Assembly (NCBI GenBank): GCA_017446885.1
Contig: JAFSOR010000023.1
Coordinates: 1-64,000 of the forward strand
Length of the DNA: 64,000 nucleotides
Reading direction: 5' to 3'
Origin: Spirochaetia bacterium
Lineage (GTDB): Bacteria > Spirochaetota > Spirochaetia > CADAEX01
Shown here: positions 7,195 to 54,939 of the stretch, one piece after another
Position numbering within the stretch: position 1 is the stretch's first letter
How the letters are laid out: each line of letters opens with the position of its first letter
The notes under the pieces: model-generated
Database searches by the model: none
What the model saw: only the letters and a program-made list of their open reading frames with translations
Told to the model about the DNA's origin: nothing
Program-made: the position numbers and the translations under genes

Positions 7195-7270
7195 TGCGGT
7201 GAATAGGTAAAATAATCTCCGCAAAAATGCGGTGAATAGACTTGATAATCACCGCAAAAAATGTTATACT
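7195..7270 (+). promoter_or_regulatory. fic promoter with tandem 33-bp operator repeat
   Basis: Two direct copies of a 33-bp unit lie end to end (7195-7227 and 7228-7260). Both begin TGCGGTGAATAG, contain ATAATC and end CCGCAAAAA; each half-site pair forms a dyad (TGCGGTGA with TCACCGCA in the second copy). The fic promoter TTGATA (7242-7247), 17-nt spacer, TATACT (7265-7270) lies inside the second unit and ends 6 nt before the ATG. A repressor bound here would block transcription. Confidence 0.8.
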
Positions 7271-7276
7271 CCTATT

Positions 7277-8407
7277 ATGTACATATATCATGATGAACAT
7301 TGGCCATTCTTCGAATATGATTCTCATTCTCTCTCAAGGCTGCTTGAGGAATGTCACCTGGAGCAGGGAAAACTGCTTGCGCGGATGGATATGCTGGGGC
7401 TTTCAGAGAAAGAGGAGAAGATACTCTCAACCGTTACAAGCGATATAGTCAAATCCAGCGAGATAGAGGGATTTCTGTTAAATCAGGATAAAGTCCGTTC
7501 ATCTATTGCCCGCAGGCTGGGAATCAAAACATCAGGACTGGTAAATTCAGACCGTAATGTTGATGCTGTTGTTGATATGATGCTTGATGCCGCCACAGAC
7601 TTTGAAAAACCACTTACCGAGGAGCGGCTTTTTAGCTGGCATGCCTGTCTTTTTCCAACTGGTTATAGTGGAATGAACAAGATAGAAGTGGCTAAATACC
7701 GTTCATCGGATATGCAGGTGGTTTCAGGTGGTTTAGGACATGAAAAGGTGCATTATGAGGCACCAAAACCGAAGGCTGTCAGGCGGGAGATGAGGCTTTT
7801 TCTAAGATGGTTGAATAATAAGAAGAAAGAAGGGGATTCTATCATTCATGCTGCTGTTGCTCACCTTTGGTTTATCACGATACATCCTTTCGAGGATGGA
7901 AATGGACGCATAGCCCGGACAATAGCAGATATGATGCTCTGCCGCAGCGACAGGACCAAATTCCGTTTCTACAGCATGTCGAATCAGATCCTGCTTGATA
8001 AAAAAAACTACTATGATATTCTTGAGAAAACACAGCATGGCTCTGTTGATATCACCGGATGGATTGAATGGTTTTTAAAATGCTATAAGGGGGCGGTTGA
8101 AGAGAGCTTTGCCCAGACAGAGAGTGTTCTTAGGAAATATGCTTATCTTCAGGGTATCTCGCATATACCGCTGAACAGTCGCCAGTCCCTTATGCTGAAT
8201 AAAATGCTGGACAGTTCATGGTTCGGAGTGCTGAATACATCAAAATGGGCCAAAATTACCAAGTGCTCTTCTGATACTGCATTGAGAGATATCACAGATT
8301 TAGTGGAGAAGGGAGTGCTTGAGAAGAATCCGACTGCGGGAGGAAGGAGCACTAATTACGTTATACTTATTAAGGTGCAAGAGGGGAGAAATGAAGAGAA
8401 TCATTAA
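7277..8407 (+). CDS. Fic family protein (probable AMP-transferase) with DUF4172 N-terminus and winged helix
   Basis: Fic enzymes transfer AMP or another nucleotide moiety to a target protein. The active-site loop HPFEDGNGR is complete at about residue 203. The inhibitory helix motif SSEIEG near residue 60 marks a class II, self-inhibited Fic. The first ~40 residues (YIYHDEHWPFFEYD) match the DUF4172 N-terminal extension, and the C-terminus (about 320-375) looks like a winged helix (WAKITKCSSDTALRDITDLVEKGVL). The ATG at 7277 is chosen because it lies 6 nt after the -10 box; upstream in-frame starts fall in the operator. The winged helix plus tandem operator suggests autoregulation. It overlaps the next gene by 17 bp. 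Confidence 0.88.
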   Translation: MYIYHDEHWPFFEYDSHSLSRLLEECHLEQGKLLARMDMLGLSEKEEKILSTVTSDIVKSSEIEGFLLNQDKVRSSIARRLGIKTSGLVNSDRNVDAVVDMMLDAATDFEKPLTEERLFSWHACLFPTGYSGMNKIEVAKYRSSDMQVVSGGLGHEKVHYEAPKPKAVRREMRLFLRWLNNKKKEGDSIIHAAVAHLWFITIHPFEDGNGRIARTIADMMLCRSDRTKFRFYSMSNQILLDKKNYYDILEKTQHGSVDITGWIEWFLKCYKGAVEESFAQTESVLRKYAYLQGISHIPLNSRQSLMLNKMLDSSWFGVLNTSKWAKITKCSSDTALRDITDLVEKGVLEKNPTAGGRSTNYVILIKVQEGRNEENH

Positions 8408-13996: not shown

Positions 13997-14806
13997 ATGA
14001 TAGGTATCCGACTGGCTGACAGCACATTTTTCTCAATATGCTCCGATGGTCCCGAGAAGAAGAGGGTAGTGCTCTCTCCTGCCAATAAAAACCAGAAGAA
14101 AGCCAAGATAGATCTGTTCAGATATAATGCCTCGGACGAGAAAGACGGGTACCATATAGGCTCGCTTTTCCTTGACCCGATAGGTTATGACGATGCCGGC
14201 GAGTCGGAGATAGAACTTTTTATCGACACAGACGGAAAACGTATCAGGGCTGTTGCCACAGATTTGCGTGGTGGTTCCAAGGATGAATTTGCGACAGAGC
14301 TTCCTGGGATTATCCTGGCGCCGACTCAGGTGCAAAGCCAGGTTGTACAGACCGAAAACGCCCCGGAACCTGCACCGGTTGCAGTAAGGGGAATCAGGAG
14401 CCTCCAGATTATGATGGGGGTGCTTCTTATTATGATGGCTTTTGTCACCGGCATGCTGCTGTACAATATGATTTCTGCCCCCTGCGTGCGGAATCTGCCT
14501 GGTTTTGCTGAGCTTCCGCCTCCCGAGCCCGAGATGCAGCCTAAGCCAGAGCCACAGCCAGCGCAGCCTACACCACCGGCTCCTAAATCCGAACCAGCCC
14601 CAGCACCGCCAGCTCCTGTAGCTCCGGCTCCGGGTCAGGAATATATCCGTTACACTGTCAAGTATGGTGACACCCTGTGGTCGCTGGCCAGGGATTTCTG
14701 CAAGGACCCATACATGTATAAGCGTATCGCCTCAGAAAACCACCTGGAAAACCCCGACAAGCTTATATCTGGCACTATTTTAATTATTCCTATTAATAAA
14801 TACTAA
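13997..14806 (+). CDS. Membrane protein with C-terminal LysM domain
   Basis: A 269-aa protein in three parts. Residues 1-120 are soluble and contain IGIRLADSTFFSI and EIELFIDTDGKRIRAVATDL, the latter reminiscent of the beta-rich substrate domain of Hsp70 proteins. A single hydrophobic helix near 130-152 precedes a Pro/Ala/Glu-rich linker. A LysM domain (YTVKYGDTLWSLARDFCKDPYMYKRI) ends the protein and should bind peptidoglycan in the periplasm. The ATG at 13997 is 7 nt after a TAAAAT -10 (TTGCTA -35, 17-nt spacer), so the upstream TTG start at 13961 is rejected. A role in envelope/division is suggested by the following ftsK, but this is inference. Confidence 0.8.
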   Translation: MIGIRLADSTFFSICSDGPEKKRVVLSPANKNQKKAKIDLFRYNASDEKDGYHIGSLFLDPIGYDDAGESEIELFIDTDGKRIRAVATDLRGGSKDEFATELPGIILAPTQVQSQVVQTENAPEPAPVAVRGIRSLQIMMGVLLIMMAFVTGMLLYNMISAPCVRNLPGFAELPPPEPEMQPKPEPQPAQPTPPAPKSEPAPAPPAPVAPAPGQEYIRYTVKYGDTLWSLARDFCKDPYMYKRIASENHLENPDKLISGTILIIPINKY

Positions 14807-14831
14807 AATACATTTCATTTTCTGCCGATAG
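14804..14831 (+). promoter_or_regulatory. Sigma-28-like promoter before ftsK and fliG-like gene
   Basis: TAAA (14804-14807), a 16-nt spacer and GCCGATAG (14824-14831) match the flagellar sigma-28 consensus (TAAA-N15/16-GCCGATAA) at 11 of 12 positions. The -35 overlaps the stop codon of the LysM gene. The same 16-nt spacing recurs upstream of the export-gate operon and of flgM. Confidence 0.6.
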
Positions 14832-14857
14832 AAAATAGTAGTCTTTTGGGAGGAAGT

Positions 14858-17179
14858 GTGTCTAAATCAAGATCGATTATTATAACCTCCAGCATCCTTT
14901 TCTGTGCTGGAATACTTCTGGCGCTGGCCATGTTCTTTGCCAGTCATGGAATTGAGATTCCACTCTTTGTGCCACTTGGAGTATGGTTCTTAAGCCGGTT
15001 CCTGTGGGCTTCCTACTATGTCCCTGCATATCTTTTTTTCTGCGCTGTATATCTCCTCCTTAAGCATTGGAACCGCAAAGTCCTCTATGTCCTTATGGCT
15101 ACTATCGCACCGTTCCTTACCCTGGCCGCTTTTTTGCGTGTTCTGCTGTGGACCCGCAGCCTTAAATATTTTGTTGCAGTCCTGCTTGCCCTGGCTGTCC
15201 TGATTGAGCTATATGGAATTGCTGTCATTGCAGGGTTCAAAGGCTTCCATTTCAGGCTCCCAACATTCAAGATTCCCCGTTTTGACCTTAAATCCTTAAA
15301 TCCGTTCAGCCGCGATGACGATGAGGATGAAGATGACGAAGAGGAATATGATGAAGCTGAGGATGCCCGGGATGAAGAAAAACAGGAAGAGTTTATAGCA
15401 GTTTCTCCCGAAGCTGAATCCCAGGAAAAAGAAAATGAATCTGAATCAGCTGACAGCTATGCCCCTGAGTATTTAAGCCTTGGGCTTTCCCGTCTTTCCG
15501 AGCCAGAAGAAGTAGTATCTGAGTTTGAGATTGAGCCGGAAGATGAACCTGTGGAAGTTGAACCGGTGGAAGAGGATTCCGCTGAGGATGAACTGGAAGA
15601 AGATGCCGAAGAGCCTGTTGATGACGATTCCGAGATCAGCATAGAGATAGAAGGGGATGAAGAGGAAGAGGATGAGCCTAAACCTGCCCCGAAGCGGGTG
15701 CATAAGGCTTCTGCTGTACAGCGTAAAAGGCCGGTAAAATATGATATTCCAATAGAGAATGTGCTGGAAGACCGCGGAGATTCTTCATCCTATGTGGTAA
15801 CCGAGGAGACTAAGCGCGATGCCAGTATACTTACCGAAACATTGCGGCAGTTCAAGATAGAGGCAGAGATAATAAGCATAAAGAAGGGGCCGGTAATCAC
15901 CATGTTCGAGATTCTTCCGGCTTCTGGTGTGAATGTATCCAAGATTGCAAGCCTGGCCGACACCATAGCCATGAACCTGGCTGCCCAGAGCATCCGTATT
16001 GTCGCTCCTATCCCGGGCAAGCGGGCAGTAGGTGTGGAAATACCTAACCAGAAGCGCAATATAGTGGGATTCAAGGAGCTTATCTCTGCCAAGAACCCAG
16101 ATGTGGACAAGGCAGCATTGCCTTTTATCCTGGGGCGTGACATAGAAGGAGACCCGCAGGTTGTTGATGTGGCCAAGACTCCGCACCTCCTTATCGCAGG
16201 AACCACCGGTTCTGGAAAGTCAGTATGTGTAAACTCCCTTATATCAACCATCCTTTACAGGAAGCGTCCTGATGAGGTAAAGATGATTCTGGTAGACCCC
16301 AAGGTAGTCGAGCTTAAGATATACAACGATGTGCCACACCTGCTTACCCCTGTGATAACCGAGCCAAAGAAGGCACTCCAGGCACTGCAGTACTGCATAG
16401 ACGAGATGGAGAAGCGGTATAGGCTTCTGGAACAGCTGGATGTCCGCAACATCGAGGGATATAACAAGAAGATAAAGACCACCGATTACCTAGCCGACCC
16501 GCTGCCATATATACTGGTTGTAGTGGATGAGTTTGCCGACCTTATGCAGACATCAAGCAAGCAGCTTGAACCGGCAGTATCCAGGCTTACAGCCAAGGCC
16601 AGGGCAGTGGGAATCCACCTGGTTCTGGCTACCCAGCGTCCTTCGGTAGATGTCATTACCGGTGTGATCAAGGCCAATATTCCTTCCCGTATTGCCTTTA
16701 TGGTATCAAGCGGCACCGACTCCAAGGTGATTCTGGATGCAACAGGGGCCGAGATGCTCCTGGGCAAGGGCGACATGCTGTTCAAGCCGTCGTGGACCCC
16801 TGTCCTGACCCGTATACAGAGCGCATTCCTGTCAGATGAGGAAGTAGAGCGGCTGGTAAGCGAGGTCAAGAAGATGGGCGAGCCCGACTATATCGACGAC
16901 ATCATCTTCCATGACGACGAGGAAGATATGGATCTTTCATTCGGAGGAGGCTCTGGCGGCGGCGGGTTCGACAGCGATGCCGATGTCTTTGACAAAGCCC
17001 TTGCCATAGTTGCCGAGACAGGAAAAGCTTCTGCCTCATACCTGCAGAGGCGTCTTTCCATAGGCTACAACAAGGCTGCCCGCCTTATCGAGGATATGGA
17101 GGCAAGGGGTATAATAGGGCCACCTAACGGCAGCAAGCCGCGAGAAATTCTCCATCTGCCCGACAGGTTCAAGGATTGA
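14858..17179 (+). CDS. ftsK: DNA translocase FtsK
   Basis: Septum-located DNA pump that segregates the chromosome terminus at division. Four hydrophobic segments occupy the first ~140 residues, then a long, very acidic linker (DDDEDEDDEEEYDEAED and similar runs, about 155-290), then the motor: Walker A GTTGSGKS near residue 448, Walker B ILVVVDEFADL, and the C-terminal gamma winged helix (ASASYLQRRLSIGYNKAARLI) that reads the orientation sequences. The GTG at 14858 follows GGGAGGAA; an in-frame TTG at 14846 lies inside that Shine-Dalgarno, so GTG is preferred. A sigma-28-like promoter lies upstream, and a FliG-like gene follows after 1 bp. Confidence 0.95.
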   Translation: MSKSRSIIITSSILFCAGILLALAMFFASHGIEIPLFVPLGVWFLSRFLWASYYVPAYLFFCAVYLLLKHWNRKVLYVLMATIAPFLTLAAFLRVLLWTRSLKYFVAVLLALAVLIELYGIAVIAGFKGFHFRLPTFKIPRFDLKSLNPFSRDDDEDEDDEEEYDEAEDARDEEKQEEFIAVSPEAESQEKENESESADSYAPEYLSLGLSRLSEPEEVVSEFEIEPEDEPVEVEPVEEDSAEDELEEDAEEPVDDDSEISIEIEGDEEEEDEPKPAPKRVHKASAVQRKRPVKYDIPIENVLEDRGDSSSYVVTEETKRDASILTETLRQFKIEAEIISIKKGPVITMFEILPASGVNVSKIASLADTIAMNLAAQSIRIVAPIPGKRAVGVEIPNQKRNIVGFKELISAKNPDVDKAALPFILGRDIEGDPQVVDVAKTPHLLIAGTTGSGKSVCVNSLISTILYRKRPDEVKMILVDPKVVELKIYNDVPHLLTPVITEPKKALQALQYCIDEMEKRYRLLEQLDVRNIEGYNKKIKTTDYLADPLPYILVVVDEFADLMQTSSKQLEPAVSRLTAKARAVGIHLVLATQRPSVDVITGVIKANIPSRIAFMVSSGTDSKVILDATGAEMLLGKGDMLFKPSWTPVLTRIQSAFLSDEEVERLVSEVKKMGEPDYIDDIIFHDDEEDMDLSFGGGSGGGGFDSDADVFDKALAIVAETGKASASYLQRRLSIGYNKAARLIEDMEARGIIGPPNGSKPREILHLPDRFKD

Positions 17180-17574: not shown

Positions 17575-18471
17575 ATGGTCATCAGTTATCAGAAGGGAAA
17601 TGTTTCTTATGAAGCAATCTCTGGCCATATCTCTCTTTATGCCTACGATTTCCCGCGGCGGGTCAAGCATTGGGATCAGGACCGCTGCAGCGATTTCTTT
17701 GTATTTATCCATCCGCGCCTTAAAAAGATAGCTGACACTTTTGTATTCTCCGACCTCCCGTTCGAGTCATATCTTAATGCCTCACTTAAACATCAGCTGA
17801 ATTCATTCATCAAAAAACAGCAGGAAAAAAGGATTAAAGAAGAACTTTTCTGCAATATATGTGCATCGGGCTCTCTTGCAGATGAGGGGGCTTTGTACAG
17901 AATCTACGATACATTCAACTACGAGGTCACCGAACCTGAAATATCATACCGGCATAAAGTTGACAAGGTCAGGAACAAGAAGCGGATTTTATTCCTTGCC
18001 CTGTCCCATCCTGACCAGCTTGATGATAAGGCAATAGAGCATCTGTCGGCACTGACCGGGTACAACGCCGACTGTCTTAGCATGTGCTGCATTGCTGTAA
18101 AGGAGAAGGTCCAGAAGAAAAGAGAGTCGCTAAGGCTTCTTAGGGAGCGGAAAAACGGATGGTATTTCCAGATTCTGGTAATTCAGAGAAGGATTATGGA
18201 TGAGCCCGACCCCGAAAAGCGCATCTGGCTTGAGGAGCAGATTCAAAGGCTCAGGTTCAAGATAGAGCGTGCCAACAGGATGATAAAGGCCAAGGTCTCC
18301 TGCCTGGTAAGCCATCAGGATCTGGCCGATGTGCTTGGGATACCTAAGGGAACAGTGGATTCAAGCCTCTATTATCTTATGCGGAAAAGCGGGCATCGTA
18401 AGATTAAAAGCTCTTCTGCGGATAGACTGTCTTTGCGCTCACTCCTGCAATTGCACCCAGCTTGCCAGTAA
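17575..18471 (+). CDS. Sigma-factor-like or HTH regulatory protein, unknown
   Basis: A protein of about 298 aa not assigned to a known family. The N-terminal ~85 residues resemble sigma region 2 in outline (an acidic/aromatic helix, then DLPFESYLNASLKHQLNSFIKK, like the helix before the promoter-melting region). The C-terminal ~60 residues contain a convincing helix-turn-helix (VSHQDLADVLGIPKGTVDSSLYYLMRKSG). In between is a basic coiled-coil-prone region (EKVQKKRESLRLLRERK; EEQIQRLRFKIERANRM). Start is uncertain: a TTG at 17566 is also in frame, and the nearest Shine-Dalgarno is over 20 nt away. It overlaps the convergent gene at its end by 68 bp. Confidence 0.6.
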   Translation: MVISYQKGNVSYEAISGHISLYAYDFPRRVKHWDQDRCSDFFVFIHPRLKKIADTFVFSDLPFESYLNASLKHQLNSFIKKQQEKRIKEELFCNICASGSLADEGALYRIYDTFNYEVTEPEISYRHKVDKVRNKKRILFLALSHPDQLDDKAIEHLSALTGYNADCLSMCCIAVKEKVQKKRESLRLLRERKNGWYFQILVIQRRIMDEPDPEKRIWLEEQIQRLRFKIERANRMIKAKVSCLVSHQDLADVLGIPKGTVDSSLYYLMRKSGHRKIKSSSADRLSLRSLLQLHPACQ

Positions 18472-18655
18472 TGGCATTTATCTTGTCCATAGGGGCATCC
18501 ACAGCAATGCTTATAAGGGAGATTCCCTCTTTGCGGTAGGGTATTCCCATGCGTCCTATGATGTACTCGCTTGACTCATGAAGCACTTCGTTAAGTTTGG
18601 CAGCTGCCTCGTTATCCGAGACAATGACTGCAATAAGGGCAACTTTTGTCTCCAT
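18404..18655 (-). CDS. TM1266-type iron-only hydrogenase system regulator
   Basis: An 83-aa protein with the sequence of the TM1266 family, named as putative regulators linked to iron-only hydrogenase systems: an ACT-like beta-alpha-beta fold starting VALIAVIVSDNEAAAKLNEVL, then SEYIIGRMGIPYRKEGISLISIAVDA with a closing GVSAKTVYPQK. The role is regulatory by family annotation only. The start METKV at 18655 is chosen since GGAGG lies just before it; the frame opens 12 bp earlier. It suggests this organism makes hydrogen by fermentation. Confidence 0.75.
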   Translation of the reverse strand: METKVALIAVIVSDNEAAAKLNEVLHESSEYIIGRMGIPYRKEGISLISIAVDAPMDKINAITGKLGAIAGVSAKTVYPQKSF

Positions 18656-18703
18656 AAATTCCTCCATACTTAATTATATTATAAAAGTCACCCTTTTAGC
18701 AAC

Positions 18704-18739: not shown

Positions 18740-19096
18740 ATGATGGAAATCTTGGATATAGCCATGAAAGATGACAAAATCTGCACCATGAAACTGGCTT
18801 TCAGGTGTAAAAGTCTTGACGTGGTGATAATGGACCTGCATTTTGACGGAAACCGTCTGGCTGTGGATGTTTCGGTGGAAAATGAGCATATCCGCCATCT
18901 GTTCGAGGACGAATTCTACGATTTCCTGTACCGTTTCAAGAAAAATCACTTTATAATATCTTCCCTCAGAATCCATGTCGGAGAAGAGCATAAACTTTCC
19001 GAGCCCAGTTTGGCAGCTGTTTCAGACATCAAGGAAAAGTGGCTTAAGGTCATGAATCCCCAGGGCAGTTTCAGGCTGCTGGATGCTCTCGCCTAA
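18740..19096 (+). CDS. Small protein resembling the FliK C-terminal (Flg_hook) domain
   Basis: A 118-aa protein, no signal or membrane segment. The core reads as two long strands then two helices: MKLAFRCKSLDVVIMDLHF, NRLAVDVSVENEHIRHLF, then DEFYDFLYRFKK and IISSLRIHV. This order and spacing resemble the C-terminal domain of hook-length control protein FliK, whose job is to touch FlhB and switch export specificity. Similarity is by pattern only and a different small beta-alpha domain is possible. It precedes the FliM/FliN-like gene by 67 bp and lies behind a sigma-28-like promoter, supporting a flagellar role. The long N-terminal ruler part of FliK is missing. Confidence 0.45.
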   Translation: MMEILDIAMKDDKICTMKLAFRCKSLDVVIMDLHFDGNRLAVDVSVENEHIRHLFEDEFYDFLYRFKKNHFIISSLRIHVGEEHKLSEPSLAAVSDIKEKWLKVMNPQGSFRLLDALA

Positions 19097-19163
19097 ATAA
19101 AAATAATTAATTAATAAAAATGTTTGCAAATTTACTCTATATTTGATAAAATATTTACCAAAT

Positions 19164-20129
19164 ATGCGGACAGCAGTCTCTGATTTCATTAATGCATTTG
19201 CCTCTTCCTGCTCAGATTTGCTTACCAGGGCGCTTAGGAAAGGGGTTTCTGTACAGGTTGACTCCATATCTGCCTGTCCTGCTTCAGAGCTGCCAGATGC
19301 AGTGCTTACATCGCCTGCTGTAGTCCTGCATGGCACAGGCTGTTCATTTGCCATGGTTCTGGAACGGCAGCTTGCTTTTTCCATTATGGAGACACTCCTG
19401 GGGGGCGACGGTAAGACAGCTGTGGAAAACAGGCCTTTTTCCGATGTAGAGCAGGCTGTTGCAGCCTCATTTATGGACAAGCTGGCAGACTGCCTTAACA
19501 ATATATGGCGTTTCGGAAGCGATAAAGACCTGACCCGGGACAATATGTCAGAATATTTTTCCGAGTCCGGTTTTCCGGCAGGAAAAGAGATGCTGCATCT
19601 GGCAGTGCTGGATGTTGCCTGGGACAAAAGCTGGCGTAAAATATATGTCTGCATCCCAGACTCAGAGCTGGATGCGGCCGAGGCTGTGCTTGAGAATGCC
19701 TTTGACTCAGGCGGTAATATAGTGCTTACTGCCGAGATTGGAAGTTCCAATCTCGAACTGGAAGGGGCTTTACAGCTTGGAATTGGCGATGTTGTATGTG
19801 TAGCGCCGCCCCAGGGCGGGCTTCTGGTGCGGGCCGGGAAAAAGGCTTTATGGCTTGCACAGAGCGGTGCTGTGGGCGATTCGGTGGCAGTAAGCATACT
19901 GTCGCGTTACCAAGGGCCTGAGCCTGCCTATGGCAGGGTTGTTGCCATCCTTGGAAGCACAGCCCGCCATTGGAAGGATGTCCTTGCGCTGGACTCGGGC
20001 GATGTTCTGGTGCTGGACCGTAAGCTGCACAGCCCGGTACAGCTGTTTTTGTCCGGCAAGCTCAAGGCCGAGGGGCAGGTGGTTGTTATAGATAAAAGGT
20101 TGGGAGTGCGTATAAAGAAACTGCTCTGA
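19164..20129 (+). CDS. FliM core plus two SpoA domains (FliM-FliN-type C-ring protein)
   Basis: A 321-aa protein. Residues ~1-180 match the FliM/CheC-like middle domain (FAMVLERQLAFSIMETLLGG at 62-81, then RPFSDVEQAV at 90-99, equal to the FliM pattern R-F-T-x-I-E). Two SpoA domains follow: about 185-250 (LELEGALQLGIGDVV) and 256-321 (GRVVAILGSTARHWKDVLAL, then LDSGDVLVLDRKL, FliN-like, ending DKRLGVRIKKL). One chain therefore carries the FliM body and a FliN unit. The N-terminal CheY-P-binding peptide of FliM (LSQxEIDALL) is absent. The layout resembles SctQ of injectisomes in its tandem SpoA domains. The ATG at 19164 is taken; an in-frame TTG lies at 19143. Confidence 0.75.
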   Translation: MRTAVSDFINAFASSCSDLLTRALRKGVSVQVDSISACPASELPDAVLTSPAVVLHGTGCSFAMVLERQLAFSIMETLLGGDGKTAVENRPFSDVEQAVAASFMDKLADCLNNIWRFGSDKDLTRDNMSEYFSESGFPAGKEMLHLAVLDVAWDKSWRKIYVCIPDSELDAAEAVLENAFDSGGNIVLTAEIGSSNLELEGALQLGIGDVVCVAPPQGGLLVRAGKKALWLAQSGAVGDSVAVSILSRYQGPEPAYGRVVAILGSTARHWKDVLALDSGDVLVLDRKLHSPVQLFLSGKLKAEGQVVVIDKRLGVRIKKLL

Positions 20130-20162: not shown

Positions 20163-20561
20163 GTGAAAAACATTTCGGTACTTATTGTTATTTCTCTTTT
20201 TCTGATATGTGCATCTGCAGTGTTTGCAACTCCTGCAGAGCAGGATCTTTTGATTCCGGACGGCAGCCCGGCAGGTGCAGAAACTGGTGCATCGTTCGGT
20301 GCATGGGATTTTTTCCGCACCATTCTGGTCCTGGCCCTTGTGATAGCTGCAGTCTACGCAGTGCTCCACTTTCTTAAGAAGATGCATCCGAGGTTTATAC
20401 AGACCGATGACAAGAGAATAAAGGTAGAGGCCACCAAAGTTCTGGCCCCTGGAAAGACAGTGCATATCATAGAGGTGGAAGGGCGCCGGTTCCTGGTGGG
20501 CAGCGCAGACCATTCGGTCGGGCTTCTGGCCGAGCTGGACAGAAAGGAGCAGGAACAATGA
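20163..20561 (+). CDS. fliO: Flagellar biosynthesis protein FliO/FliZ
   Basis: Small membrane protein that helps FliP assemble into the export gate. 132 aa: a signal-like N-terminus ending SAVFATPA, a periplasmic stretch, one strong membrane helix (FFRTILVLALVIAAVYAVLHFL, about 50-71) and a cytoplasmic beta-rich tail (VEATKVLAPGKTVHIIEVEGRRFLVGSADHSVGLLAEL) typical of FliO. It begins with GTG after GGGAGGGG and overlaps fliP by 4 bp. Confidence 0.88.
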   Translation: MKNISVLIVISLFLICASAVFATPAEQDLLIPDGSPAGAETGASFGAWDFFRTILVLALVIAAVYAVLHFLKKMHPRFIQTDDKRIKVEATKVLAPGKTVHIIEVEGRRFLVGSADHSVGLLAELDRKEQEQ

Positions 20562-21331
20562 GAAAGATTATTCTGCTGGCCCTTATCTTATGCATACTGC
20601 TGCCCGCTTTTGCGTGTGCCCAGGAATCTGATGCAAAAGATGGAGTTTCCATTCCTTCCATAGAGATTAATGTCAAGGATTCCGGTTCCAATAAAGAGAT
20701 GGTTTCTTCCATAAAGCTGCTCCTCCTTCTGGCTGTGATTGCAGTTGCCCCATCGGTGCTGCTCCTTACCACCTGCTTTGTCCGCATTGCAGTGGTGCTC
20801 GATTTCGTAAAGCGTTCGCTGTCGCTCCAGAACACCCCGCCGAATCAGCTTATCCTGGGGCTTGCAATATTCCTTACCCTGTTTGTGATGTGGCCAGTGT
20901 TCGACACTATTTATAACGAATCTTTCAAACCATTCTCCGAGGAGCAGATAGATGCCCAGGAGATGTATACCAGGGCGGAGCAGCCCTTAAGGCTTTTCAT
21001 GTACAACCAGCTCAAGGCACACCCCGACAACATAAGGCTTTTTATGAGCATGAGGGGGCTTCCTAAGCCGGCAAACCTGTCAGAGGTGCCAACCTATGTC
21101 CTTGTTCCAGCCTTTGCCCTGAATGAGCTTACTATAGCGTTCAAAATAGGAATACTTCTGTTCATTCCTTTCATTGTCATAGATATGATTGTGGCATCTG
21201 CCCTTATGTCCATGGGCATGGTTATGGTCCCTCCTGCAATGGTGTCGCTGCCGTTCAAGCTTATCCTGTTTGTTCTGGTGGATGGCTGGAACCTGATTGT
21301 GGGACAGCTTCTCTCAAGTTTTGTCATGTAG
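20558..21331 (+). CDS. fliP: Flagellar export gate protein FliP
   Basis: Pore-forming subunit of the flagellar type III export gate. The 257-aa protein has a cleavable signal (ending FACAQES), then helices with the family motifs LLLTTCFVRIAVVLDFVKRSL and, at the C-terminal end, FKIGILLFIPFIVIDMIVAS followed by LMSMGMVMVPP and LPFKLILFVLVDGW. Length and all landmark motifs are as in full flagellar systems, so selection on the pore is intact despite the changes in FlhB and FlhA nearby. ATGA overlap with fliO. Confidence 0.96.
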   Translation: MRKIILLALILCILLPAFACAQESDAKDGVSIPSIEINVKDSGSNKEMVSSIKLLLLLAVIAVAPSVLLLTTCFVRIAVVLDFVKRSLSLQNTPPNQLILGLAIFLTLFVMWPVFDTIYNESFKPFSEEQIDAQEMYTRAEQPLRLFMYNQLKAHPDNIRLFMSMRGLPKPANLSEVPTYVLVPAFALNELTIAFKIGILLFIPFIVIDMIVASALMSMGMVMVPPAMVSLPFKLILFVLVDGWNLIVGQLLSSFVM

Positions 21332-21340
21332 AGGTGGAAT

Positions 21341-21610
21341 ATGGATACAGGAACAGCTGCATATTTAATACGGCACGCTCTGGGACAGGTGCTTCTGATA
21401 TCTGCTCCGATTCTTCTTATAAGCCTTCTGGTGGGGCTTGTAGTCTCCATAGTTCAGGCTGCTTTCTCGGTGCAGGAGCAGACTCTCTCTTTTGTTCCCA
21501 AGATTCTGGCAGTGCTTGTGGTGGTGATTATTTTCGGGGCATGGATGTTCGGCTCTATGGAGCAGTTTGCACTTGAGGTGTTCCGCCTTATTCCAAGGAT
21601 GGTGAAGTAG
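21341..21610 (+). CDS. fliQ: Flagellar export gate protein FliQ
   Basis: Two-helix subunit of the export gate, 89 aa. Both hydrophobic helices are present (LLISAPILLISLLVGLVVSIVQA and FVPKILAVLVVVIIFGAWM), separated by the conserved loop SVQEQTLSFVPK. Normal length. It begins 9 bp after the fliP stop and 4 bp precede fliR. Confidence 0.95.
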   Translation: MDTGTAAYLIRHALGQVLLISAPILLISLLVGLVVSIVQAAFSVQEQTLSFVPKILAVLVVVIIFGAWMFGSMEQFALEVFRLIPRMVK

Positions 21611-21614
21611 CAGC

Positions 21615-22343
21615 ATGGCATGGATCGGAGAACACCCACAGCTTTATTTCCTCGTCTTTGCAAGAGTGTTTGCCCTTGTTCTGTCTGCGCCCCTTTTAGG
21701 AAGCCGAAGCCTGCCTGTTGCAGTCAAGGCGGCATTGGCCCTTCTTACTGCCTATGTGGTGGCTCCGGCCATGGTGGAGCGGTATGATTCATCTATGGAA
21801 GGGCTTGCATTCTGGACTTTGCTGGCAGGCGAGGCCCTAATAGGCGTTATCATAGGGTTCTTTCTGCAGATTATCTATACTGTCTGTGTGGCTGCTTCTC
21901 ATATGTTCACAATAAAAATCGAGACAGAAAACCTTATGAATGTGGCGGCCATGGCAGTCTTTGTCACAGCGGCCGGTTTTTATAAAGTGTTCTACATCGG
22001 GGTCCTTTCCTCGTTCAAGGCAATGACAGCCCTTGATATCCTGGGCTGCAAGGAAAATCTTGCAAAGCTTTTGGTGACAGGGCTTTCCGATATGTTTGCC
22101 CAGGCTGTGGTCATGGCACTTCCTGTTGTGGGTGTGCTTTTGGTGATGACACTGGCCCTTGGACTTTTGGCGCGGCTTACTCCGCAAATCAACTTTTTCC
22201 CTGGGGCATGGCCTCTTTTCATGGGGGTTGGAATATTGATTTTAGCTCTGGTGCTGCCTGTGCTTATGGACAGCCTGGGGCGTTTTATGGATTACGGCTT
22301 TTATGCTGTTTCTGATTTTCTTAAGGCGGGAGGCAGGACATGA
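21615..22343 (+). CDS. fliR: Flagellar export gate protein FliR
   Basis: Third gate component, 242 aa with about six helices. The N-terminal part (YFLVFARVFALVLSAPLLGSRSLPVAVKAALALL) and the TPQINFFPGAWPLFMGVG segment near 185 are typical of FliR. The loop that in most FliR proteins carries a conserved Asp-Pro after the third helix is not recognisable: the sequence runs ASHMFTIKIETENLMNVAAM instead, and the protein is slightly short. It overlaps flhB by 4 bp. Confidence 0.92.
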   Translation: MAWIGEHPQLYFLVFARVFALVLSAPLLGSRSLPVAVKAALALLTAYVVAPAMVERYDSSMEGLAFWTLLAGEALIGVIIGFFLQIIYTVCVAASHMFTIKIETENLMNVAAMAVFVTAAGFYKVFYIGVLSSFKAMTALDILGCKENLAKLLVTGLSDMFAQAVVMALPVVGVLLVMTLALGLLARLTPQINFFPGAWPLFMGVGILILALVLPVLMDSLGRFMDYGFYAVSDFLKAGGRT

Positions 22344-23071
22344 CCGATATGGACATCTACGCTCCCGAGGATGAGGGCAGGACAGAAAAGGCTACCCCTG
22401 GCAAGAAAAAGAAGGCCAGGAAGGAAGGACAGGTTGCAAAAAGCAGCGAGCTTACTGCTGTAGTATCGGTCTTGGCCGCGGTTGTGTTCCTGGCTTTCTG
22501 GGGCAGACGTATGGCAGGCGAGCTTGAATCGCTTATAGGCCAGTGTGTGAACATTGCTGTGCAGGACCAGGCCGGGTACGCCGCTCTGGCTGCCGCCGCC
22601 CTGGGCAGCTTTTGCCGTGCTTTGCTGCCGCTCCTTCTGGTGGTATTTGCAGCTGCCTTGGCCGCAGAGCTTGCCCAGGTGGGGTTCCAGTTTACCTGGA
22701 AACCACTTAAGCCTAAGCTGGAAAGGCTTAGGCGGCAGCACATAAGCCGGCGTACCGGTTTCCAGCTGGGGCATGCCCTGATTAAGACAGTGGTCACTGC
22801 CTTGGTTTTAGTGGTGGGGATAAAGGTTGAGCTGCCCAGGATATGTGCCATGCTGGATACCCAGCTGGAAAGCAGCTCCAGAATTTTTGCAGCCCTTGCT
22901 GTCAAGCTGCTGTTGGAAGTGGTGCTGGCACTTCTGGCCCTGGCTGCAGTTGAATATATAGCCGAGCGCATCTTCTTTGCCGAGTCTTTAAAGATGACAC
23001 GGCGTGAGGTGCTTGAGGAGATGAAGCAGGAAGAGGGAGACCCTGTGGTAAAGGATATGCTGAGGAGATAA
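22340..23071 (+). CDS. flhB: FlhB transmembrane part only, lacking the autocleavage domain
   Basis: FlhB normally has ~350-380 residues: four membrane helices and a cytoplasmic domain that cleaves itself at N-P-T-H to switch export from hook to filament proteins. This protein has 243 aa. The start (EGRTEKATPGKKKKARKEGQVAKSSELT), the loop AQVGFQFTWKPLKPKLERL and the four helices are conserved. The chain then reaches the linker motif TRREVLEEMKQEEGDPVVKDMLRR and stops, precisely where the C-terminal domain would begin. flhA starts 2 bp after the stop, so there is no room for a frameshifted remainder. Either the domain is encoded elsewhere or the machine works without it. Confidence 0.9.
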   Translation: MTDMDIYAPEDEGRTEKATPGKKKKARKEGQVAKSSELTAVVSVLAAVVFLAFWGRRMAGELESLIGQCVNIAVQDQAGYAALAAAALGSFCRALLPLLLVVFAAALAAELAQVGFQFTWKPLKPKLERLRRQHISRRTGFQLGHALIKTVVTALVLVVGIKVELPRICAMLDTQLESSSRIFAALAVKLLLEVVLALLALAAVEYIAERIFFAESLKMTRREVLEEMKQEEGDPVVKDMLRR

Positions 23072-23072
23072 T

Positions 23073-25109
23073 ATGAAAAGCAATTCAGAAAAAAGCAAAA
23101 AAGACTATTTCATCGCGATAGGAATCATAGTGGTCATAGCTATGATGCTGATATCGCTTCCGACCCCTCTTCTGGATGCTTTCATGGCCCTGAACCTTAT
23201 GGGCAGCCTTGCCATAATCCTTATAGTCCTCTATTCAAAAAAGCCATCTGAATTCTCTATATTCCCAACTCTGCTCCTTATAGCAACTGTATTCGGGCTG
23301 GGGCTCAACATATCATCCACCCGGCTTATCCTTCTTAAGGGAGCTGCTTTCGACGGCCGCATTATACGTGCGTTCTCCCGTTTTGTCGTGGGGGGCTCTG
23401 GCGGCGAATCGCTGGTAATCGGTGTCATCATATTCATCATCCTTATTGCTGTGCAGCTGGTTGTTATAACCCGCGGAGCCACCAGGTCTGCCGAGGTTGC
23501 TGCCAGATTCACCCTGGACAGCATGGTCCAGAAGAACCTTTCAATCGATTCACAGGTTCAAAGCGGCGCTATCTCGGCCGAAGAGGGAATGCGCAGACGG
23601 GCTGCCCTTAAACAGGAAGTTGACTTCTATTCAGCCATGGACGGTGCCTCCAAGTTTGTATCTGGAAATGTAAAGGTAGGAATCCTTATAACACTGGTAA
23701 ATATTTTCGGCGGTCTTATAGTAGGCATCTGCTTTAAGAACGAGCCTTTCGGCGATGCAGTCAGGAACTATACAACCCTGACCATAGGTGACGGCCTGGT
23801 GACCCAGTTCCCTGCGCTCCTTATCTCCACCGCCACTGCCATGATAGTGACCCGCTCTGTCGCTTCAGACAGCTTTGCAGCTGAGTTCTCCAAGCAGTTT
23901 GCCAAAGAGCCTGGTGTGTTCTTGATATCTGGCTTCTTCGCCCTGTTCCTGGCAATAGTTCCTGGATTCCACAAGGCCTGGTTTGTGCTTGTTATACTGG
24001 CAGCAGTGGCATTCATTGCAGGGCTCAGGATGCGGCGCGATATGGGAAATAAGAAAGAAGAAAGCAGCCCGGACAGCGAAGGCTCAGAAAAGGGCGGGCA
24101 GCGAACCATAAGTATGCCGGCAGTGCAGAAAGTGGATCCTGTGTCGCTGGAACTGGGGGCAGCCCTGATTCCTTTGGTAAGCGGCAAAGACGATTTCCTT
24201 GACAGGATAACAGGACTGCGCAGCCAGGTGGCAATGGAGCTTGGTTTTGTAGCTCCTAAAGTAAGAATAAAAGATAATCTGCAGCTTGGCAGGTCGGAAT
24301 ACTGCATAAAAATAAGGGACATAGAGGCAGACCGGGCATCGGTGAGGATGGGCAGGTATCTGGCAGTCGATTTTGACGGCATATGTCCAGAGCTTGATGG
24401 TGAGCCTGTAAAGGAGCCGGTATCGGGAAGCCGCTCCTACTGGATTTCGGAAAGCGAAAAGGAATCTGCTCAGGCCAAAGGCTATTTTATTTCCGATGTG
24501 CCGTCGCTTATAATAACACATCTTACCGAGGTGGTTAAACTTAATGCTCCGACCCTGCTTGGGAGGCAGGAGCTTTCTGCCATGCTGGAAGAGGTTTCCA
24601 AGAGCGCCCCTGCTGTTGTGGACGAGGTCAAGAGTCTCCTTTCCCTTGGCGAGATACATAAGGTGATCCAGAATCTGCTTAAGGAGCAGGTATCTGTACG
24701 CGACTTGGTTACAGTTCTTGAGGCGCTGTGCGACGCAGCTCCAAAATCAAAGGATATAACATTCCTGACCGAGAAGACCAGGCAGGCTCTGGCACGCCAG
24801 ATTACAGCAGCCCAGCTTTCAAAGGACAGGCAGCTCCACGTAATAACACTTTCGCCAGAGCTTGAGCAGCTTATAGCTGGAACCAAGACCCTAGATAGAG
24901 AACTTGAGAAAAAAATATCATTATCTGCCCTTAAGATGGCATCGGAGATCAGGGCAAAAGGGTTTAAGCCTGTGCTTCTATGCATGGAGCAGTCCCGCCC
25001 TGCAGTAAAAAGGGCAGTGCCGCAGCTGTGTGTAATGTCGGTGCTTGAGCTGGCCGAAGGTGTCAAGAATGAATTCTATGGGCAGGTGGAGATACAGGAT
25101 AACAACTGA
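23073..25109 (+). CDS. flhA: Flagellar export protein FlhA with Asn at the Asp208 position
   Basis: Proton-channel and substrate-docking subunit of the export apparatus, 678 aa, with about eight membrane helices and a cytoplasmic domain from ~345. The signature loop reads MDGASKFVSGNVKVGILITLVN; at residue 199 (codon 23667-23669, aat) the aspartate that equals Asp208 of Salmonella FlhA is Asn, and a Lys follows two residues on. The other key charges are kept: Arg84 (STRLIL), Lys194 and Asp240 (TIGDGLV). The linker before the C-terminal domain is acidic/serine-rich (KKEESSPDSEGSEKGG). It overlaps flhF by 1 bp (TGATGG). Otherwise full length. Confidence 0.95.
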   Translation: MKSNSEKSKKDYFIAIGIIVVIAMMLISLPTPLLDAFMALNLMGSLAIILIVLYSKKPSEFSIFPTLLLIATVFGLGLNISSTRLILLKGAAFDGRIIRAFSRFVVGGSGGESLVIGVIIFIILIAVQLVVITRGATRSAEVAARFTLDSMVQKNLSIDSQVQSGAISAEEGMRRRAALKQEVDFYSAMDGASKFVSGNVKVGILITLVNIFGGLIVGICFKNEPFGDAVRNYTTLTIGDGLVTQFPALLISTATAMIVTRSVASDSFAAEFSKQFAKEPGVFLISGFFALFLAIVPGFHKAWFVLVILAAVAFIAGLRMRRDMGNKKEESSPDSEGSEKGGQRTISMPAVQKVDPVSLELGAALIPLVSGKDDFLDRITGLRSQVAMELGFVAPKVRIKDNLQLGRSEYCIKIRDIEADRASVRMGRYLAVDFDGICPELDGEPVKEPVSGSRSYWISESEKESAQAKGYFISDVPSLIITHLTEVVKLNAPTLLGRQELSAMLEEVSKSAPAVVDEVKSLLSLGEIHKVIQNLLKEQVSVRDLVTVLEALCDAAPKSKDITFLTEKTRQALARQITAAQLSKDRQLHVITLSPELEQLIAGTKTLDRELEKKISLSALKMASEIRAKGFKPVLLCMEQSRPAVKRAVPQLCVMSVLELAEGVKNEFYGQVEIQDNN

Positions 25110-26098
25110 TGGAATACTTTGAGGAATCGGGGCTGGATTACGACACTCTGATAGAGGGAATCCGGCAGAAGTATGGACAGCATATCCACATCATGAACCG
25201 CAAGAAAGTGATGCTTGGCGGCATCCTGGGCTTTGGCAGGCGAGAGGGGTGGTGTGTCACCGGTTATGTAAGCGATTCTGTATTCCAGAGCAAGGTTTCG
25301 GAACCTGTCCCCGAATCTTTGAAAAAACTTCAGGCTCTGCTTGAGAAAAACGACTTCTCTCAATCCTACATACAGCGGGTTGTTTCTGAACTTAAGAAAT
25401 CGTCCCACGAAGAAAGCCTTAAAAGCTGGGGCTATGTGATAAAACAGACCAGGGACATAATATGTGGTGATATTGCCACATATCAGGGCAGGAACATCTT
25501 TATCCCTTCAATCACGGCAGTGATCGGCCCTTCGGGGGTGGGCAAGACCACAGTGGTGGCAAAGCTTGCGGCCAGTCATCTGAAAGCTGGCAAAAGGGTG
25601 GGAATTATCTCCACCGACAAATATAAGATAGGGGCCGAGGCTCAGATAACAGCGCTGGCATCGGGTATGAATATCCCGGTGGTAACTGTGGGAAATCCTG
25701 CCGGAATGAGGCAGCAGATAGAGCTTTGGAGTTCAAAGGCAGACAGGATTATAGTGGATACAGTAGGCCGCAATCCCAAGGATTCAAAAGCCCTTATTTC
25801 GGTTGGCGAAATTCTTGGGGGCTGTGGAAGAGAGGTGGAGAAACTTTTAGCAGTAAGTGCAACCACCAAGGCCTCTGACCTGTTTGAGATAATAGGACAG
25901 TTCAACATACTGAACTTTAATGCAGTAATATGCACAAAGATGGATGAGACATATCATGCGGGAAATGTGATAAGCGCCCTGCAGCAGACAGGAAAAAGCC
26001 TGGCCTACATAGCTATGGGACAAAAGATAACATCGGGCATAGAAGGTGCCAGAAGCGAGAGGGTGCTTGAATTTCTGGAAGGTTTTGATGCAGTATAG
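25109..26098 (+). CDS. flhF: SRP-type GTPase FlhF
   Basis: GTPase that sets flagellar position and number, 329 aa. After an N-terminal basic part and helical N-domain, the G-domain shows GPSGVGKTT (P-loop, near 140), ISTDKYKIGAEAQI (Lys in place of the usual Arg in the DTYRxxA motif), DTVGRNPKD and TKMDE. The protein is shorter than many FlhF proteins through a reduced B-domain. The partner ATPase FlhG (MinD-like), which usually follows directly, is absent: fliA comes 9 bp later. Confidence 0.92.
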   Translation: MEYFEESGLDYDTLIEGIRQKYGQHIHIMNRKKVMLGGILGFGRREGWCVTGYVSDSVFQSKVSEPVPESLKKLQALLEKNDFSQSYIQRVVSELKKSSHEESLKSWGYVIKQTRDIICGDIATYQGRNIFIPSITAVIGPSGVGKTTVVAKLAASHLKAGKRVGIISTDKYKIGAEAQITALASGMNIPVVTVGNPAGMRQQIELWSSKADRIIVDTVGRNPKDSKALISVGEILGGCGREVEKLLAVSATTKASDLFEIIGQFNILNFNAVICTKMDETYHAGNVISALQQTGKSLAYIAMGQKITSGIEGARSERVLEFLEGFDAV

Positions 26099-26107
26099 AG
26101 AGGTAGT

Positions 26108-26905
26108 ATGAATACAAAGAAAACGATTGTTGAAAACCCGGAAGAAGAACAGAAACTCTGGGCTGAATATAAACAGACAAGATCTCATGAATTGCGGAAC
26201 AAGATAGTAAGCAAATATGCGCCGCTTGCCAAGTATGTGGCTGGACGGCTGTCTATAGGAATGCCCCCGAGCGTAGATTTCGGCGACCTTGTAAACTGCG
26301 GCATTGTAGGCCTTATGGATGCGGTGGAGAAGTTTGAGCCCGATAAGAATGTCAAGTTCAAGACCTATGCTATAACCCGTATCCGCGGCGCCATCTATGA
26401 CGAGCTTCGCACTCTGGACTGGGTGCCACGTTCTGTGCGGCAGAGGGCGCGGGAGATAGAGGAGGCGGTGCGTATAACCGAATCCAGACTGGGCCGTTCC
26501 GCTACCGATGAGGAAGTGGCATCGTGCCTTAAGATTTCTGTCCAGGAATATAGGGATGCTGTCTATAAAGTGAGCTGCACTTCAATCATGTCGCTTAACG
26601 ATTTAAGGAGCAACAGCGATGGAGATGACAAGATTTCCCTTATGGACAGCCTGGTGTCACCTGCCAGCCTGAATCCGGACGTGATAGTGGAGAAGGAAGA
26701 GCTTAAAAGAATAGTTGCTGAATCTATACGTGAGCTTCCAGAGAAAGAGCAGAAAGTCCTGGTACTCTACTATTATGAGCAGCTTACCCTTAAGGAAATA
26801 GGCAAAGTCCTGGATGTCACCGAGTCACGCGTGTCGCAGCTCCATACCAAGGCTATCATCAGGCTCCGGGCCCGGCTTACAAACTCAAGGCGTGGAATTA
26901 TTTAA
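26108..26905 (+). CDS. fliA: RNA polymerase sigma-28 factor FliA/WhiG
   Basis: Alternative sigma factor for late flagellar genes, 265 aa. Region 2 is seen in VSKYAPLAKYVAGRLSIGMP to KFKTYAITRIRGAIYDELRTLDWVPRSVR, the hallmark of FliA-type factors; region 3 in ITESRLGRSATDEEVASCL; region 4 in LTLKEIGKVLDVTESRVSQLHTKAI. It ends the export operon. Its expected anti-sigma factor FlgM is encoded at 57874-58158 in the same window, behind a sigma-28-like promoter. The stop overlaps the convergent murE end by 8 bp. Confidence 0.95.
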   Translation: MNTKKTIVENPEEEQKLWAEYKQTRSHELRNKIVSKYAPLAKYVAGRLSIGMPPSVDFGDLVNCGIVGLMDAVEKFEPDKNVKFKTYAITRIRGAIYDELRTLDWVPRSVRQRAREIEEAVRITESRLGRSATDEEVASCLKISVQEYRDAVYKVSCTSIMSLNDLRSNSDGDDKISLMDSLVSPASLNPDVIVEKEELKRIVAESIRELPEKEQKVLVLYYYEQLTLKEIGKVLDVTESRVSQLHTKAIIRLRARLTNSRRGII

Positions 26906-53031: not shown

Positions 53032-54939
53032 ATGGAAGATAAACGAATTACAGAATTTTCCATATACGACCCTTCAGCACATAAAACAATTTTTAGTGAT
53101 ACATCAATATCGTATGTGATTCCTTTATATCAAAGGGCATTTGCTTGGGAAGATAAGGAAATTGTACAGCTTATCGATGATATCAATGATTTTGATAATA
53201 AGAATGGACGCTCTTATTATCTTGGCGCTGTTATTGTTTCCAAAGAAGGAAGTTGCTACGAAGTGATTGATGGACAGCAGAGACTTACGGCGTTGTTTCT
53301 TTTATTGAATTATTTAGGTATGCCGATGGAGAGTATCCTTTCCTTTGAATGCAGGAAAAAGTCGGATTATACATTGCAAATGATTGTCGACGATAAAGCA
53401 ATCACAATTGATGATATAGATGACAGCCTACTTAATGGAAAAAAGATTATAGAAAATGAATTAGGAAAATACACTGATTACGAGAAAAAAGTGTTTATCA
53501 ATAAATTATCATCAGTGAAAATATATCGGATTGAAGTTCCTGACAATACAGATCTTAATCATTATTTTGAGATTATGAACACCCGTGGTGAACAGCTTGA
53601 GCAGCAGGATATTCTAAAAGCTCAGTTACTGAGCTACTTAGATAATGGTTATATGGCTACATTTTCTAAAATATGGGATGCCTGCAGCGATATGACTGGT
53701 TATGTTCAAATGCATTTTGATACGGAATTACGTGCTGAGATATTTGGCTCAGAATGGGAGAATGAGCCAAACTGTAAGATTAAAGTGCGTGATGGCAGAA
53801 AAAGTGGGAAAAGTATACGGGAAATTATTGATCCTAAATTTGTTGTTGATCATAAAAGTGAAATCGCAGATTCCGATGATAGGGTCAGATTTGAGAGTAT
53901 TATTACATTCCCATATTTCTTACTGCATGTTTTAAAAATCTATGTATGGGCAAATGGGATTGATGCACATATAAATGAATTGCTTGATGACAAGAAGTTG
54001 TCGGATACCTTTACGAGTGTTATTGAGGAAGGGACAAAGGGTGGTTCTTCTCTTGACAAAGCTACTTTTTCCAAGGGTTTTATTAAATGCCTTCTGAAAT
54101 GTAGATTCCTTTTTGACAAATACATTGTTAAAAGAGAATTTGTAAATGACGATTCAGATGGAGATTGGAGCATAAAAACATTTCATTCTTCCGGAATGTA
54201 CTCGAAGAAAAAGCCATATTATTCAAATAGCTATATTGGTGTAAAAGGAGAATGGAAGCAGACATATGATGCAAGGCATAAGAGAGTTCTCATGCTTCAG
54301 GCTTTGCTTAGAGTATCCTATACATCACCCAAGATCATGCACTGGATTACGGAACTTCTTAAATGGCTGTATACAGATTCAAATGGATGGGATATGAGTG
54401 CATTTGAAGGCGTGATTGAAGATTATATATGTTTTGGATCGGAAAGCAATACAAACGGAAGTGTTACCGTTATGGATTATATTGAAGCCGGTGATTATGA
54501 TATGGGTGTAAATACACCGCATCTGATCTTTAATTATCTGGACTATCTACTTTGGAAGAATAATCAGAGTAAATACTCGAATTTTGTATTTGAGTTCCGA
54601 AATTCTGTAGAACATTGGTATCCGCAGCATCCATCAGAGGGTACATTCGAGCAGTGGGCTCCGGATGAAGGTGTTAATAATTTTGGAAACCTGTGTATTA
54701 TCCAAAGAAATGTTAATTCAAAATTCTCGAATATATCACCGGAATCGAAGCAAAGTACTTTTGAGGATATGATATCAAAGGGAAGCATTAAGCTTCGAAT
54801 CATGGCAGAGATTATCAGAAAGATGAATACAGATGGTGTTAATTCAAATAAGGAATGGAAGGAAAGTGCCTATATAGAGCATGGGATTGAGATGCTAGAT
54901 ATTTTGAGGAACGCATGCGATACCGCCAAAAACAAGTGA
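53032..54939 (+). CDS. DUF262 + DUF1524 (HNH) protein (second of a pair)
   Basis: A 635-aa protein in two parts. The N-terminal DUF262 domain has YVIPLYQRAFAWEDKEIVQL, VIDGQQRLTALFLLLNYL and FEIMNTRGEQLEQQDILKAQLL. The C-terminal DUF1524 nuclease domain shows NSVEHWYPQHP (the H of the H-N-H fold) and NNFGNLCIIQRNVNSKFSN. Together these give the same domains as GmrSD, which cuts phage DNA bearing modified cytosines; the actual target here is not known. It starts at the base after the previous stop. Codon use is A/T-rich like its partner. Confidence 0.88.
   Translation: MEDKRITEFSIYDPSAHKTIFSDTSISYVIPLYQRAFAWEDKEIVQLIDDINDFDNKNGRSYYLGAVIVSKEGSCYEVIDGQQRLTALFLLLNYLGMPMESILSFECRKKSDYTLQMIVDDKAITIDDIDDSLLNGKKIIENELGKYTDYEKKVFINKLSSVKIYRIEVPDNTDLNHYFEIMNTRGEQLEQQDILKAQLLSYLDNGYMATFSKIWDACSDMTGYVQMHFDTELRAEIFGSEWENEPNCKIKVRDGRKSGKSIREIIDPKFVVDHKSEIADSDDRVRFESIITFPYFLLHVLKIYVWANGIDAHINELLDDKKLSDTFTSVIEEGTKGGSSLDKATFSKGFIKCLLKCRFLFDKYIVKREFVNDDSDGDWSIKTFHSSGMYSKKKPYYSNSYIGVKGEWKQTYDARHKRVLMLQALLRVSYTSPKIMHWITELLKWLYTDSNGWDMSAFEGVIEDYICFGSESNTNGSVTVMDYIEAGDYDMGVNTPHLIFNYLDYLLWKNNQSKYSNFVFEFRNSVEHWYPQHPSEGTFEQWAPDEGVNNFGNLCIIQRNVNSKFSNISPESKQSTFEDMISKGSIKLRIMAEIIRKMNTDGVNSNKEWKESAYIEHGIEMLDILRNACDTAKNK

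Follow-up and report, generated by a model that had tools for sequence, protein, structure and literature searches.

Can a type III secretion system (T3SS) be useful while building nothing? This open evolutionary question is touched by an operon in a Spirochaetia genome, in which the flhB gene is intact but encodes no C-terminal cleaved domain. Autocleavage of FlhB is regarded as a general feature of T3SS. We analysed the window, which is the whole stretch of 64,000 nucleotides presented here, together with its source genome (G000, a metagenome bin; 28 contigs, 1,750,149 bases), six other species of the same genus (G001-G006), whose named records are metagenome bins from rumen, reticulum and omasum, and four genomes of the sister genus (G007-G010).

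The FlhB truncation

The window protein (243 aa) is the single match to the FlhB/SctU family PF01312 in the whole source genome, and it covers only profile positions 2-234 of 335 (178 bits), while its score against TIGR00328 (153 bits) falls below the cut-off of 349. Residues 4-242 align to the solved FlhB structures 12du, 8z5s and 6s3l (36hu is matched as well), with residue 242 corresponding to residue 245 of 6s3l and 8z5s (~245 in Vibrio/Salmonella numbering). The profile and the structure alignments thus place the N-terminal transmembrane part of FlhB/SctU, which wraps the gate, within the window protein; the NPTH autocleavage site and the C-terminal domain are missing from it and from the genome. 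An AlphaFold model of the protein was poor (pLDDT 56) and was left out of the evidence. In Salmonella the autocleavage site is N269/P270 (PMC13344023), and the window protein ends in the linker (FlhB-CN), about 24 residues short of the Asn269-Pro270 cut. A single base separates the flhB stop from the flhA start (Table 1), which means that DNA coding for the C-terminal domain is physically absent rather than concealed behind a frameshift.

These results bear on the original prediction, made from sequence alone, that FlhB is intact from start to stop yet ends before its autocleavage domain. That claim held, by the exact reading frame and the PF01312 coverage, and the presence of all four helices was supported by the alignment to solved FlhBs over residues 11-242. 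The protein was also said to stop exactly at the domain border, which is corrected here to an end within the linker, and a 2-bp gap to flhA proved to be 1 bp. Of two outcomes named as refuting, a sequencing error restoring a longer frame failed, there being no room before flhA, and full-length FlhB in all close relatives failed too, five of the six genus relatives being truncated. The prediction had further proposed that the domain was dispensed with or split off, and that the genome be searched for a free FlhX-type domain; that search found none in G000, so that dispensed with holds and split off fails.

For the genome search, every ORF of at least 30 aa was translated and scanned, with all filters off, with a profile built from 32 class-level FlhB C-terminal domains. 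Nothing was found among the G000 ORFs (best E 1.8), and the same profile recovered its controls (G007 FlhB, 1e-45; G001 FlhB, 8e-22; FlhX, 2e-15). An FlhX or hidden C-terminal domain in G000 was accordingly rejected with both Pfam and the custom profile. Four NPTH tetrapeptides in unrelated G000 ORFs were taken as chance. An assembly or frame artefact, or a domain encoded elsewhere as FlhX, can therefore be ruled out almost entirely: in its favour stands only that the source bin is 94% complete, and against it stand the flhA start one base past the stop, the silent profile with working controls, and an identical FlhB end in six bins, some of them 98-99% complete.

Truncated FlhB occurs in six of the seven genus genomes. 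In G002-G006 the protein (243-250 aa, 76-79% identical) is cut at the same point, PF01312 profile position 236-243. The exception, G001, has an FlhB of 348 aa that keeps the C-terminal domain and carries TGKDG in place of TNPTH; in the FlhA tree this species joins the genus on a long branch, and its sister placement is provisional. All four sister-genus genomes encode FlhB with its C-terminal domain plus FlhX as an extra copy (in G009 the gene is interrupted where its contig stops), whereas G000 has neither the domain nor FlhX. In a non-exhaustive class survey of 395 genomes, the matches examined were full length, which does not exclude truncation elsewhere in the class; a smaller class survey gave a second, FlhX-type match in most genomes. 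The NPTH domain is normal in other FlhB-matching loci, from Clostridia (L099) and Treponema (L101, L103), and a further search with the FlhB protein as query yielded nothing more. We thus found no FlhB truncation outside the genus among the loci and survey matches examined, which do not cover the class exhaustively. As a separate observation, another family of the class (f10; G019, G077, G147) lacks an FlhX match and has one strongly divergent FlhB match per genome, which in G019 and G077 scores ~190 bits with almost complete coverage; it might possibly hold another altered or non-flagellar T3SS.

Table 1. Features of the flhB operon in the window, with sigma-28 boxes found elsewhere in the source genome
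Feature	Position	Strand	Remarks
sigma-28 (FliA/WhiG)-type promoter, TAAA-N16-GCCGATA	14804..14830	+	16 bp upstream of ftsK
ftsK, 777 aa, operon's first gene in the genus	14846..17179	+	Pfam FtsK alpha/motor/gamma
stand-alone FliG middle domain, 103 aa	17181..17492	+	PF14841, 40 bits
divergent sigma-70-like protein, 301 aa	17566..18471	+	TIGR02937 26.5 bits, under its cut-off
FliK C-terminal (T3S4) domain by itself, 118 aa, ruler part absent	18740..19096	+	PF02120, fold search
FliM-FliN fusion	19143..20129	+	FliM 17-255, FliN 269-326
fliO, 132 aa	20163..20561	+	phmmer to G007 FliO, 4e-15
fliP, export gate	20558..21331	+	E 4e-100; 91-95% identity to five relatives
fliQ, export gate	21341..21610	+	similarity search and relatives
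fliR, export gate	21615..22343	+	similarity search and relatives
flhB without the entire cleaved C-terminal domain	22340..23071	+	ATG to TAA, 243 codons
flhA, full length, export motor	23073..25109	+	Pfam, alignments
flhF	25109..26098	+	conserved in relatives
fliA/whiG sigma-28	26108..26905	+	NF004935 WhiG 382 bits, exceeding cut-off 343
further sigma-28 box	C17:869-893
further sigma-28 box	C20:2387-2413
further sigma-28 box	C21:2793-2817
further sigma-28 box	C22:14852-14876

Parts lost and parts kept

We infer from spacing and strand that ftsK and the T3SS genes lie on one transcript, and ftsK is linked to the gene for the stand-alone FliG middle domain in G002-G006 as well. This 103-aa protein is conserved in all six species (78-83% identity in the five relatives); it weakly resembles one section (residues 227-314) of a sister-genus FliG-like protein of 459 aa. 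The divergent sigma-70-like protein is 64-69% conserved in the five relatives, and the operon thus holds two sigma-type genes, this one and fliA. The 3' ends of the sigma-like gene and of a gene for a TM1266-like putative hydrogenase-system regulator (18404-18667, minus strand) overlap. The FliK C-terminal protein scores 25 bits against PF02120, below the cut-off of 29.8; in a fold search its model best matched the PscP switch domain (5cuk, probability 1.00, E 5e-3) and also FliK-C (2rrl, probability 0.90, E 0.08), so that the T3S4 assignment is weak but consistent. FliF, FliG, FliH, FliI and FliJ are encoded on the same contig outside the window (positions 88229-92482). Elsewhere in the window are a Fic/DOC protein with a DUF4172 domain (7232-8407) and a GmrSD-type restriction endonuclease with both domains (53032-54939), possibly a phage defence.

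The flagellar type III export apparatus is thus present in its parts (FliPQR, FlhA, FliHIJ, MS ring, C ring), with scores for FliF (192 bits), FliG (281) and FliI/YscN (554) above the cut-offs of 130, 227 and 380. What it would serve in a flagellum is gone. None of the seven genus genomes contains the PF06429 domain of rod, hook and HAPs (Flg_bbr_C) or flagellin (PF00669), both of which occur in the sister genus, and CheW is likewise absent in 7/7 genus genomes. Sister-genus queries for FlgB, FlgC, FliE, FlgD, the hook, MotA, MotB, FliL and the FliK ruler gave nothing significant in G000. MotA/ExbB had no match in G000 or G002-G005; the one match in G006 and two in G001 are not assigned to flagella. 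The losses therefore take in the FlhB switch domain, the rod, hook and filament, and the coupling to chemotaxis; the stator is missing as well from no fewer than five of the six species.

Several retained proteins are themselves reduced or altered. FliF has 314 aa, versus 569-585. It aligns over RBM1 and RBM2 (residues 8-228) and keeps the FliG-binding tail at its C-terminus, but has lost RBM3 and the collar. FliM lacks its CheY-binding LSQxEID start, and its fusion to FliN gives two SPOA domains, as in SctQ. FliG keeps its architecture, with the torque helix changed from DDRAIQKVLRE to DDEILCAVLAG and its arginines missing. The transmembrane/FHIPEP part of FlhA is well conserved, and its chaperone-dimple motif DPxFG (DPAFG) reads EPVSG in all six species (in Salmonella numbering D456 to E and F459 to S, with T490 unchanged). 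As D456 and F459 of the Salmonella dimple dock late-substrate chaperones (PMC8166844), classical late-type docking has likely been lost as well.

G001 has an intermediate FliF, with RBM3 sequence present and collar loops missing. Its gene set is smaller still (L032 6940-7986, minus strand, and L204), with a FliG of 221 aa and a FliK-C of 107 aa; FliH/FliI/FliJ and FliM/FliN are missing, and a PBP gene stands before fliO. The gene losses in G001 suggest that the whole lineage is still shedding parts.

In the six truncated-FlhB species, FliF, FliG, FliM-FliN, FliHIJ, FliOPQR, FlhA, FliK-C, FlhF and FliA are kept intact, and the retained gene set and its lengths are near-identical. We calculated median dN/dS over the 15 species pairs, at a synonymous divergence (dS) of ~0.5-1.1, and obtained 0.058 for FliP, 0.068 for FliI, 0.069 for FliQ, 0.073 for FlhA, 0.074 for FliF, 0.074 for FliA, 0.081 for FliG, 0.163 for FlhB and 0.182 for FliK-C; ftsK, our in-operon yardstick, gave 0.081. 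The gate, the ATPase complex and the reduced MS and C rings are therefore kept under purifying selection across these species. In the FlhA tree the genus has a long stem and short tips, which calls for long-branch caution. Together with the low dN/dS and the near-identical lengths, this tree shape indicates a changed but maintained machine rather than decay.

A functionless flagellar remnant midway through its loss is the reading that this result largely refutes. It is favoured by the stepwise losses across the sister genus, G001 and the main lineage, and by the altered torque helix and the loss of the CheY-binding part. Against it, all retained genes are intact and of near-identical length in six species despite that synonymous divergence, with dN/dS of 0.06-0.18, and the promoter is conserved; we consider decay very unlikely.

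Exporter, scaffold or needle

The reading that we favour, with moderate confidence, is that a flagellum-derived type III export apparatus has outlived the flagellum and been repurposed as a switch-free, periplasm-directed device; secretion is inferred and no substrate has been identified. With rod and hook absent, the channel would open into the periplasm. Lacking the FlhB C-terminal domain, the gate would have neither the early-substrate dock nor the early/late switch and would be fixed in one mode, sending a single dedicated protein or a small set of them to the periplasm. The modified FlhA cytoplasmic ring would recognise these substrates, and the free FliK C-terminal domain may help, perhaps by acting on FlhA. 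The change in the FlhA dimple makes it probable that the substrates are something other than classical chaperoned filament proteins. The loss was probably stepwise, with the cleavage motif going first, as in the basal relative G001, and the whole domain later in the main lineage.

Experiments in Salmonella support this reading. Without rod-hook genes, export there is into the periplasm; without the FlhB cleaved domain and Flk, the apparatus is locked in late mode and independent of FliK, and the same background secretes the late substrate FlgM-Bla to the periplasm via FliP (PMC13344023). FlhB without its domain required overexpression of the apparatus, which was interpreted as poor assembly (PMC13344023). 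The original prediction had spoken of a simplified or repurposed secretion device. Simplification held for the whole machine (rod, hook, flagellin and CheW lost; FliF, FliK and FlhB shortened), and repurposing is still inference, backed by the selection data and this Salmonella FlhB-deltaCCD phenotype (PMC13344023). Against the exporter reading, neither a substrate nor an export chaperone has been identified, the FlhA dock for late-substrate chaperones is changed, the losses in G001 point to a lineage still shedding parts, and expression, assembly and export are all inferred.

The promoters offer a further view of what the operon may serve. The sigma-28 box before ftsK is kept in G003, G004, G005 and G006, and G000 contains six strict intergenic boxes genome-wide where simulations expect 0.23. 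In relatives, boxes recur before glmS, nrdR, a 269-aa gene judged GerMN-like by eye, and the gene for a 153-aa secreted protein. From these conserved and recurring boxes we infer that FliA is probably still active, without a flagellum, on a small regulon with an envelope/growth flavour. The 153-aa protein was considered as a T3SS substrate and is not an obvious one, having a Sec-like signal.

This regulon (ftsK, glmS, nrdR, the GerMN-like protein) also supports a possible rival, a non-secretory membrane scaffold in which the FliF-FliG-FliM/N ring, FlhF and the gate serve division or envelope assembly, export having been abandoned. In its favour, too, ftsK heads the operon in the genus and the G001 PBP gene precedes fliO, both known substrate docks (FlhB-C and the FlhA dimple) are gone or changed, and Lysobacter enzymogenes employs FlhA, FlhB, FliI and FliR in twitching. 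Against it, the strongest selection includes the pore and motor proteins FliP, FliI and FlhA, FliM/N of the ring and FliK-C are evolving more rapidly, and FliH/I/J are hard to explain if nothing is transported.

A second rival is a T3SS that arose independently as a non-flagellar system and delivers proteins out of the bacterium, perhaps into rumen protozoa or to other microbes, through a needle or outer conduit of its own that has escaped recognition. Injectisome-like convergence speaks for it: FliF is cut to an SctJ-like RBM1-RBM2, FliM and FliN form one fused, SctQ-like protein that carries two SPOA domains, and there is no stator. However, nothing beside the gene clusters was recognised as a needle, translocon or chaperone gene, and the sequences belong to flagellar families, scoring as FliF/FliG and not as SctJ/SctU (injectisome equivalog scores against their cut-offs are 37.5/162 bits for SctJ, 30/101 for SctQ and 145.5/358 for SctU). 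Injectisomes also differ in that SctU keeps its autocleaving domain, and inner-rod/needle export normally employs the C-terminal domain of FlhB/SctU. We regard this rival as unlikely.

Comparison with known systems and meaning

The switch-free exporter that we favour has a close counterpart in the Salmonella FlhB-deltaCCD strain lacking rod-hook genes and flk (PMC13344023). Both lack rod and hook and have an FlhB that ends in the linker, one selected Salmonella mutant having a stop at codon 258 and the genus ending at the equivalent of ~245 (PMC13344023). The Salmonella gate works without the FliK ruler and exports to the periplasm (PMC13344023), a behaviour to which the genus is likened, its own export being inferred. 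They differ in that the Salmonella strain is a laboratory mutant with a classical late substrate, whereas the genus carries the FlhB and axial losses naturally. In the Salmonella strain FliF has its ordinary full length, FliM and FliN are separate proteins, and the FlhA dimple is unchanged.

Two other bacteria have kept flagellar T3SS (F-T3SS) components without a flagellum. Buchnera aphidicola is likewise host-associated and retained its F-T3SS after loss of flagellin and stator, but it keeps fliE, the rod genes, flgH and often hook genes (PMC8109811). Lysobacter enzymogenes OH11 is non-flagellated, has FlhA, FlhB, FliPQR and FliI and still exports a flagellin (PMC7277350); its genes, unlike ours, are scattered, and C-ring fliG/fliM are lost (PMC9927559). 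The relevant sections of these papers report no FlhB truncation in Buchnera (PMC8109811), describe no FlhB or FliF domain loss in Lysobacter (PMC7277350, PMC9927559) and report no loss of FliF RBM3 in either (PMC8109811, PMC7277350, PMC9927559). The open-access literature that we searched holds no report of a natural FlhB without this domain, which is no proof of novelty. Within that literature, loss of the FlhB switch domain and of FliF RBM3 sets the genus apart from the known flagellum-less F-T3SS cases.

A bolder reading, which we put forward with rather less confidence and judge slightly more likely wrong than right, is that here, once more and independently, a flagellum has been converted to non-flagellar secretion, leaving the genus with a natural type III exporter that has neither switch nor rod and delivers novel substrates to the periplasm. 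The lineage would be a natural counterpart to the Salmonella finding of 2026, in which deleting the FlhB C-terminal domain fixed the gate in a single mode. In it the switch domain, the MS-ring collar, the ruler and the entire axial structure have been lost together, and the pump is nonetheless constrained; GKDG in place of NPTH in G001 hints at an order, with cleavage lost first and the domain second. The lineage can be read as a minimal T3SS parts list, and, if the bolder reading is true, a T3SS can be maintained in evolution without the FlhB autocleaving domain, without FliF RBM3 and without an axial structure.
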